From positions 1-64,000 of the forward strand of contig VBEO01000138.1 of assembly GCA_005881825.1 (NCBI GenBank): DNA of 64,000 bases, written 5' to 3'. Both the position numbers and the translations under genes were made by a program. The notes below the pieces were generated by a model that was not told the origin of the DNA, did no database searches, and was given only the letters and a program-made list of their open reading frames with translations. The first letter of the stretch is position 1. Every line of letters starts with the position of its first letter. Shown here in pieces: positions 22,224 through 23,713 of this stretch. Source of the DNA: Chloroflexota bacterium (GTDB lineage: Bacteria > Chloroflexota > Dormibacteria > Dormibacterales > Dormibacteraceae).

Positions 22224-23270
22224 GTGGTGACCTCGGCGCCGCTGGTGCCGGTGGCGGAGTTCGAGCGCCAGACCGGCTGGGAGCTGAAGCCGGAAGGTGC
22301 CTGCCGCGGCAGCCTGTGCATCCCCCTGCCCGCCCCGGCCGGCGACCAGGTCGACCTGCGTTCGGTAGCCGGCAAGCTGGGCATGCCGCTGCTGCACGAA
22401 CCCGAAGCCGGGCTCTGGTCCATGGGCCCGGCGCCGGGGCCGGTCCTCGAGGGCGCGGTCGCGCCCGACTTCACGCTGCCCGACTGGCGCGGCGGTGACT
22501 TCAGGCTGGCATCGCTGCGGGGGCGCAAGGTGCTGATCCTGGCCTGGGCGCCCTGGTGAGGCTGCCGGTTCGACCTGCCCGTGTGGCGGGAGCTGCGGGA
22601 CGAGCTGAAAGACAGGGGCTTCGAGGTGGTCACGGTGGCGCTGGAGACGCGCGGCTGGAAGGAGGCGCGGCGCTGGATCGACGCCGCTCAGCCTGAACAC
22701 CCGAGCCTGCTCGACGCGACCCACCTGCTGGGCGAGCTCTACGGCATCGTCAACGTTCCGACTGGCGTCTGGATCGACGAGCAGGGCCTGCTGGTGCGCC
22801 CCCCGGAGCCGGCGTTCCCCGGCCGCCCCGCCTTTCTGGACCAGCCCTTGCCGGACACCGTCAACCCGCGCCTGCGCGGGGTGCTGACCGAGGCCCGCAA
22901 GCTGAACATGGAGGGCGACCGATACGCGGCCGCCCTCCGCGATTGGGTGGCGCAGGGCGCGGACAGCCCGTATGCGCTGGGCCCGGAGGAAGTCGCACGC
23001 CGGCTCGGTGAGCGCTCTCCAGAGGCCTGCCGCGCCGCCGCACACTTCGAGCTCGCCCAGAACCTGGAGGGCGAGGCCGCGGTCGTCCATTTCAAGGAGG
23101 CGCACCGGCTGCAGCCACGCAACTGGGCGTACAAGCGGCAGGCGTGGAGCCTGGTCGACCGTACCCAGGCGCCGAATGCCATCTATCCGACCGGCTGGCT
23201 GGAGGAGGTGCGGGCGCTCGGCGCAGAGTTCTACTACCCGCCGTTGGAGTTCGAACCCGAACAGCGGTAA
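22224..23270 (+). CDS. Redoxin / thioredoxin-fold protein with in-frame TGA at the active-site cysteine (candidate selenoprotein)
   Basis: Reading 22224-23270 in one frame gives 348 residues interrupted only by TGA at 22557-22559. The TGA falls exactly in the redox motif: the flanking residues are LILAWAPW, TGA, GCRFDLPVW, where redoxin homologs have a cysteine. The part before it has the AhpC/TSA-like VAPDFTLPDWRGGDFRLASLRGRK, and the part after it continues the thioredoxin fold (GFEVVTVALETRGWKEARRWID, LYGIVNVPTGVWIDEQG) and a helical C-terminal domain. If TGA is read as selenocysteine (residue 112), the protein would have a U-G-C site; otherwise a single TGC-to-TGA change has split the gene. 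A GC hairpin lies 22 bases after the TGA. The frame, codon bias and conservation are undisturbed on both sides. Confidence 0.75.
22578..22590 (+). promoter_or_regulatory. SECIS-like hairpin downstream of the in-frame TGA
   Basis: CCCG (22578-22581), loop TGTGG, CGGG (22587-22590). The loop starts 22 bases after the TGA and has G as its second base, which fits the loose bacterial SECIS rules as I know them, but the stem is short and weakly extended. Confidence 0.35.
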
Positions 23271-23293: not shown

Positions 23294-23713
23294 ATGGCTG
23301 GAACGAAGGTCACCGGGTCGGGCACCAAGTCGGATCCCTGGCAGCTGAAGACGCCGAGCGGCACCTCCGAGTACGCGATGTATCGCGACGAGTCGGCCGA
23401 CCCGCCGGCGCTGGTCTGCCAGGTCGGCAGTACCCAGCTGCGCTACCACCTGCGTGCCATCGACGACCTGCACGCCATGCTGAAACAGCACGGCGACTGG
23501 ATGCCGCTGGGCAGCGCCGACGAGCAGAAGCCGGCGGCGCCGGGCACGGTGGAGGCTTGGGGCCGGTCCGGCGACAACCCGGTCGGCGGTTGGTACGGAC
23601 TGCGCAAGGGCTACCGGGGCCGGTTCGGCATGTACCTGCCGCCGCTGCTCGAGGCCCTGGGTCTGGCCGAGGTCGAGCACAACCCCAAGAACAACCGGAT
23701 GCGTGCGCGCTAG
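23294..23713 (+). CDS. Conserved-looking protein of unknown function
   Basis: A 139-residue soluble protein. Visible features are GTKSDPWQLKTPSGTSEYAM near the start, LRYHLRAIDDLHAMLKQHGDW in the middle, and GRSGDNPVGGWYGLRKGYRG and FGMYLPPLLEALGLAEVEHN at the end. The even composition and many aromatic and glycine positions look like a folded globular domain. I do not recognise a named family with certainty, although proteins of this type occur widely in soil Actinobacteria as hypothetical genes. It has its own -10 box and is followed, after 80 bases, by an ArsR-type regulator. No function is proposed. Confidence 0.7.
   Translation: MAGTKVTGSGTKSDPWQLKTPSGTSEYAMYRDESADPPALVCQVGSTQLRYHLRAIDDLHAMLKQHGDWMPLGSADEQKPAAPGTVEAWGRSGDNPVGGWYGLRKGYRGRFGMYLPPLLEALGLAEVEHNPKNNRMRAR

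Follow-up and report, generated by a model that had tools for sequence, protein, structure and literature searches.

The window, i.e., the whole stretch of 64,000 nucleotides analysed here, belongs to a Chloroflexota bacterium and represents contig C14 of a 3.09 Mb assembly that is 92% complete. An earlier note, made from the sequence alone, had described a redoxin gene at positions 22224-23270 that is open apart from one TGA within the motif WAPW-TGA-GCRFDLP, and both coordinates and motif turned out to be exact: the sole in-frame stop is the TGA at codon 112, flanked by coding sequence on both sides as in a selenoprotein gene, so that the motif would read WAPW-U-GCRFDLP. The start codon was assumed to be a GTG, located at 22224 or 22227. 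Downstream on the same strand, positions 23294-23713 encode a DUF6855 protein of full length, which scores 248 bits against a cut-off of 27. The features of the gene are collected in Table 1.

Table 1. Coordinates of the predicted selenoprotein gene and of its features in the window.
Feature	Positions	Strand	Details
Predicted selenoprotein gene	22224..23270	+	348 aa with Sec112; NF041054
Invariant Cys27-x4-Cys32 pair in N-terminal domain without Pfam name	22302..22319	+	21-sequence alignment
Thioredoxin-like domain (AhpC-TSA/Redoxin, ResA/TlpA-like), residues 77-189	22452..22790	+	PF00578, E 1e-14
UGA predicted to encode Sec (U112, U-G-C motif)	22557..22559	+	Same codon is TGA in 33 distinct homologs
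Apical hairpin of predicted bacterial SECIS	22574..22590	+	CCUGCC-CGUGU-GGCGGG
C-terminal helices with TPR similarity, about residues 273-312	23040..23159	+	Profile matches, model helices

The Pfam match to AhpC-TSA/Redoxin crosses the TGA, and the codon aligns with the catalytic cysteine of ResA-like proteins, in agreement with the position that the earlier note had assigned to it. N-terminal of this domain Pfam gave no match in the window protein. Homologs align with the protein along its entire length. In the 21 long-form sequences of this alignment Cys27, Cys32 and Cys114 never vary, and position 112 is always U or C. The predicted structure, modelled with Cys at position 112, has a mean pLDDT of 92, with values mostly of at least 87 in the N-terminal domain, and the best Foldseek matches of the redox domain are ResA and DsbE-like proteins (rmsd about 1.5 over 115 residues). 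The C-terminal region is helical in the model; TPR protein profiles match it at profile positions 273-312, and TPR_2 was found in 19 of the 21 members.

These data bear on the possibility that the ribosome mainly terminates at the UGA, leaving a 111-residue N-terminal protein with a use of its own and a minor read-through product. Every Sec UGA is subject to competition from release factor 2, and the structural model shows a well-folded region, including the CX4C pair, ahead of the redox domain. However, termination would cut the redox domain in two, and the downstream half is conserved as much as the upstream half: the identity of the window protein before and after the TGA is 55 and 60% with the homolog L060, and 46 and 45% with L049, indicating that the downstream half is under selection. 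We therefore consider predominant termination very unlikely.

The protein scores 475 bits (curated cut-off 300) against the NCBIfam model NF041054, "ResA-like WAxxUGC motif-containing protein" (WAxxUGC_long), the match covering residues 6-342 and profile positions 6-353 of 354. Thus, the gene is a member of an already known, database-listed selenoprotein family, and while the earlier note was right in reading a U-G-C redox enzyme, the novelty that it implied did not hold, the family being already catalogued. Compared with NF041054, length, motif and Sec position of the window member are the same and nothing of substance differs; the window protein has WAPW in place of the commoner WASW, and the 3′ arm of its hairpin carries CGG (Arg) for CAG (Gln), the pair being kept as U-G.

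ResA of Bacillus, TlpA and StoA share with the window protein the thioredoxin-like fold and the position of the catalytic residue, but they carry a CxxC motif with Cys only, are membrane-anchored or exported and consist of a single redox domain. With the NCBIfam models for these proteins the window protein stayed far below the cut-offs; for ResA (NF002854) it reached 52 bits, the cut-off being 170, and it is thus a non-member, even if it may work like ResA. A short WAxxUGC form (L070-L082) lacks the N-terminal CX4C domain and falls below the NF041054 cut-off; TGA and hairpin are conserved in it, and the two short-form sequences tested stayed below the cut-off of every NCBIfam model. As for the literature, a search on the NCBIfam name WAxxUGC yielded no paper. 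"Prx-like (UGC-containing)" selenoproteins were tabulated in 2008 from ocean metagenomes (Zhang and Gladyshev, PMC2398784) and a "UGC-containing TlpA disulfide reductase family protein" is listed in a 2026 review (PMC13188914). As far as the available portions of these two sources go, the proteins combine a PF00578/cd02966 domain with the Sec motif UGC, as does the window protein, and those portions contain no description of an N-terminal CX4C domain or of a TPR-like end.

The earlier note had proposed to align homologs and see whether they carry TGA or a Cys codon at this position. Homologs were searched in 101 related genomes, in 400 genomes of the phylum and in public genomes. All the close homologs among the 101 related genomes carry exactly one TGA, and in total 33 distinct loci, the window gene among them, have the TGA at the same codon, in phyla including Chloroflexota, Acidobacteriota and Planctomycetota. 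This is a degree of conservation that chance cannot give. Single-base errors are possible in draft contigs, and the note had itself raised the alternative that a TGC was turned into TGA by a nonsense mutation or an assembly error, the gene being broken or misread; against this, the same TGA recurs in 33 distinct homologs, whose sequences come from many assemblies made independently.

Only one true ortholog, L047 from Pirellulales (L047:2926-3984), has TGC at the Sec position (WCQC). Its genome gave no selA or selB match above cut-off, and its apparent tRNA-Sec, the best match with 51 bits, was recognized as tRNA-Ser by ARAGORN. Sec/Cys pairing at this codon is therefore provided by an ortholog in whose genome the Sec machinery was not found. 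Phylogenetically, L047 sits within the Sec forms and groups with L050 at a strongly supported node; from this placement it likely represents a Sec-to-Cys reversal accompanied by loss of the Sec machinery. Among the genomes with TGA orthologs, G455 and G459 gave no selA match, yet selB was above cut-off; the lack of selA may be due to missing sequence.

The genome of the window was inspected for the machinery of selenocysteine incorporation, as the note had suggested, and all four components were present. The assembly contains a gene for tRNA-Sec (selC; 74 bits), which ARAGORN also calls tRNA-SeC with anticodon tca, selB (326 bits, cut-off 242), selA adjoining selB (494 bits, cut-off 268) and selD (368 bits, cut-off 125). 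Since selA, selB, selD and tRNA-Sec were all found, the Sec trait of the genome is complete. Two further genes of this genome have in-frame TGA codons: selD is itself a selenoprotein gene, with the motif GAGUACK (L054:1501-2412, contig C92), and a formate dehydrogenase with Sec (EQQARVUHGPT; L052:987-5987, minus strand, contig C66) lies no more than about 0.5 kb from the tRNA-Sec gene. A changed genetic code of the lineage, with UGA read as tryptophan or another residue, would also leave the frame open, as any TGA-reading code does. Yet the homologs span several phyla with the TGA fixed at the codon that aligns with the ResA-like catalytic Cys, the genome carries selA, selB, selC and selD, and where an ortholog lacks the TGA the residue is Cys and not Trp; the probability that we give to a changed code is negligible.

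A selenocysteine codon is expected to be followed by a SECIS element. At gathering scores Rfam gave no match in the whole window, and the segment behind the TGA was therefore studied by sequence comparison. Together the 33 segments give a single consensus hairpin, in which six pairs enclose a loop of 5 nt that begins 20 nt past the UGA. Although the loop varies across the genes (CGUGU, CGGGU, AGGUU, AGGCU, GGUCU, UGGAU), all 33 share a G as its second and a U as its fifth nucleotide. The folding energy of the whole 49-nt stretch from the TGA was no better than that of dinucleotide shuffles (z 0.77), so the folding support is limited to the apical hairpin; this comparison being uninformative, we used instead a null model of synonymous recoding, in which each gene was recoded from its own codon usage. 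The inner five pairs are formed in 33 of 33 genes, vs a mean of 39% and a maximum of 67% in 2000 recoding trials.

The two arms of the hairpin also vary together. Leucine CTG is paired with a Gln or Arg codon ending in G in all 26 genes that have it, while leucine TTG is found with CAA in five of seven genes and with CAG, giving a U-G pair, in the other two (P = 9e-5, Fisher's test; the genes are related and P is a guide). In a 29-sequence alignment standard pairs make up 97% of the pair cells, and the covariation score, computed on related sequences, was 0.213, compared to 0.087 for shuffles and at most 0.091 for slid versions. The outer pair varies among C-G, G-C and U-A, and the hairpin is not kept in the Cys ortholog L047. 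The bacterial SECIS model, as set out in PMC13188914, has an apical loop of 3-9 nt, an upper stem of 4-16 bp, a G within the first two loop positions, a distance of 16-37 nt from the UGA and an MFE of -7.5 kcal/mol or lower; the window hairpin agrees with every one of these constraints (a loop of 5 nt on a stem of 6 bp, G as the second loop nucleotide, a distance of 20 nt, and -8.6 kcal/mol when folded alone).

The covarying hairpin behind the TGA and a genome with the full Sec machinery add to the recurrence of the codon in homologs, and, on these comparative grounds, a nonsense mutation or base error is extremely improbable and can in practice be excluded. These three lines of evidence, together with the Cys ortholog in a genome where no Sec machinery was found, bear out the selenocysteine reading of the note. 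That the in-frame stop is a genuine selenocysteine codon of a thioredoxin-like redox enzyme is well supported, and the gene almost certainly encodes a predicted ResA/TlpA-like thiol-disulfide oxidoreductase whose UGA is decoded as selenocysteine.

The NF041054 cut-off was passed in 11 of the 400 genomes of the phylum sample and in 5 of 110 of the class. In the tree, the copies of three genomes of the same taxonomic family as the window genome (G010, G036 and G041; loci L019, L018 and L020, respectively) sit in a branch apart from the window gene, which suggests transfer or differential loss in its history. No conserved gene neighbours were observed beyond an acyl-CoA synthetase-like cluster at 4 of 16 loci, which we discarded as an informative neighbour, this enzyme being too common to mean much, and the neighbouring genes gave no hint of a client or substrate.

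With regard to the mechanism, SelB with Sec-tRNA-Sec would read the UGA with the help of the hairpin, which lies at the right distance; the hairpin itself emerges from the sequence comparison, and we infer from it a function in guiding UGA decoding. By analogy with ResA and TlpA, residue 112 would be the attacking nucleophile, and Sec there would speed the attack on disulfides or peroxides. The motif suggests that Cys114 would then resolve the intermediate to a selenenylsulfide; this resolving step is a guess, because the U-x-C spacing differs from the usual CxxC. The Cys27/Cys32 pair of the N-terminal domain might conceivably pass electrons to or from the U-G-C centre. The window copy shows by eye no visible signal peptide and is, for this reason, most likely cytoplasmic, where it would reduce disulfides or peroxides. 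By contrast, L046, L049 and L050 begin, again by eye, with hydrophobic or Tat-like segments ahead of the N-terminal domain; some copies in Acidobacteriota and Planctomycetota thus seem to have signal peptides, and different lineages may keep the protein in different compartments. More tentatively, the long WAxxUGC protein could be a three-part relay, in which electrons are exchanged between U-G-C and a CX4C pair that is itself redox-active, and a specific client binds at the TPR-like end, combined with an evolutionary move between outside and inside of the cell, a proposal that we hold to be possible but rather doubtful.

Overall, the result is a confirmation of a known selenoprotein family and otherwise no surprise; what is added consists only of details, namely the N-terminal CX4C domain, the TPR-like C-terminal region, the apparent signal-peptide contrast and the likely Sec-to-Cys reversal. 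For the organism, at least three genes very probably have a UGA that means selenocysteine; a standard gene caller would end the window enzyme at residue 111 and split the formate dehydrogenase gene at its TGA. For the family, the invariant second cysteine pair offers a concrete, testable mechanism.
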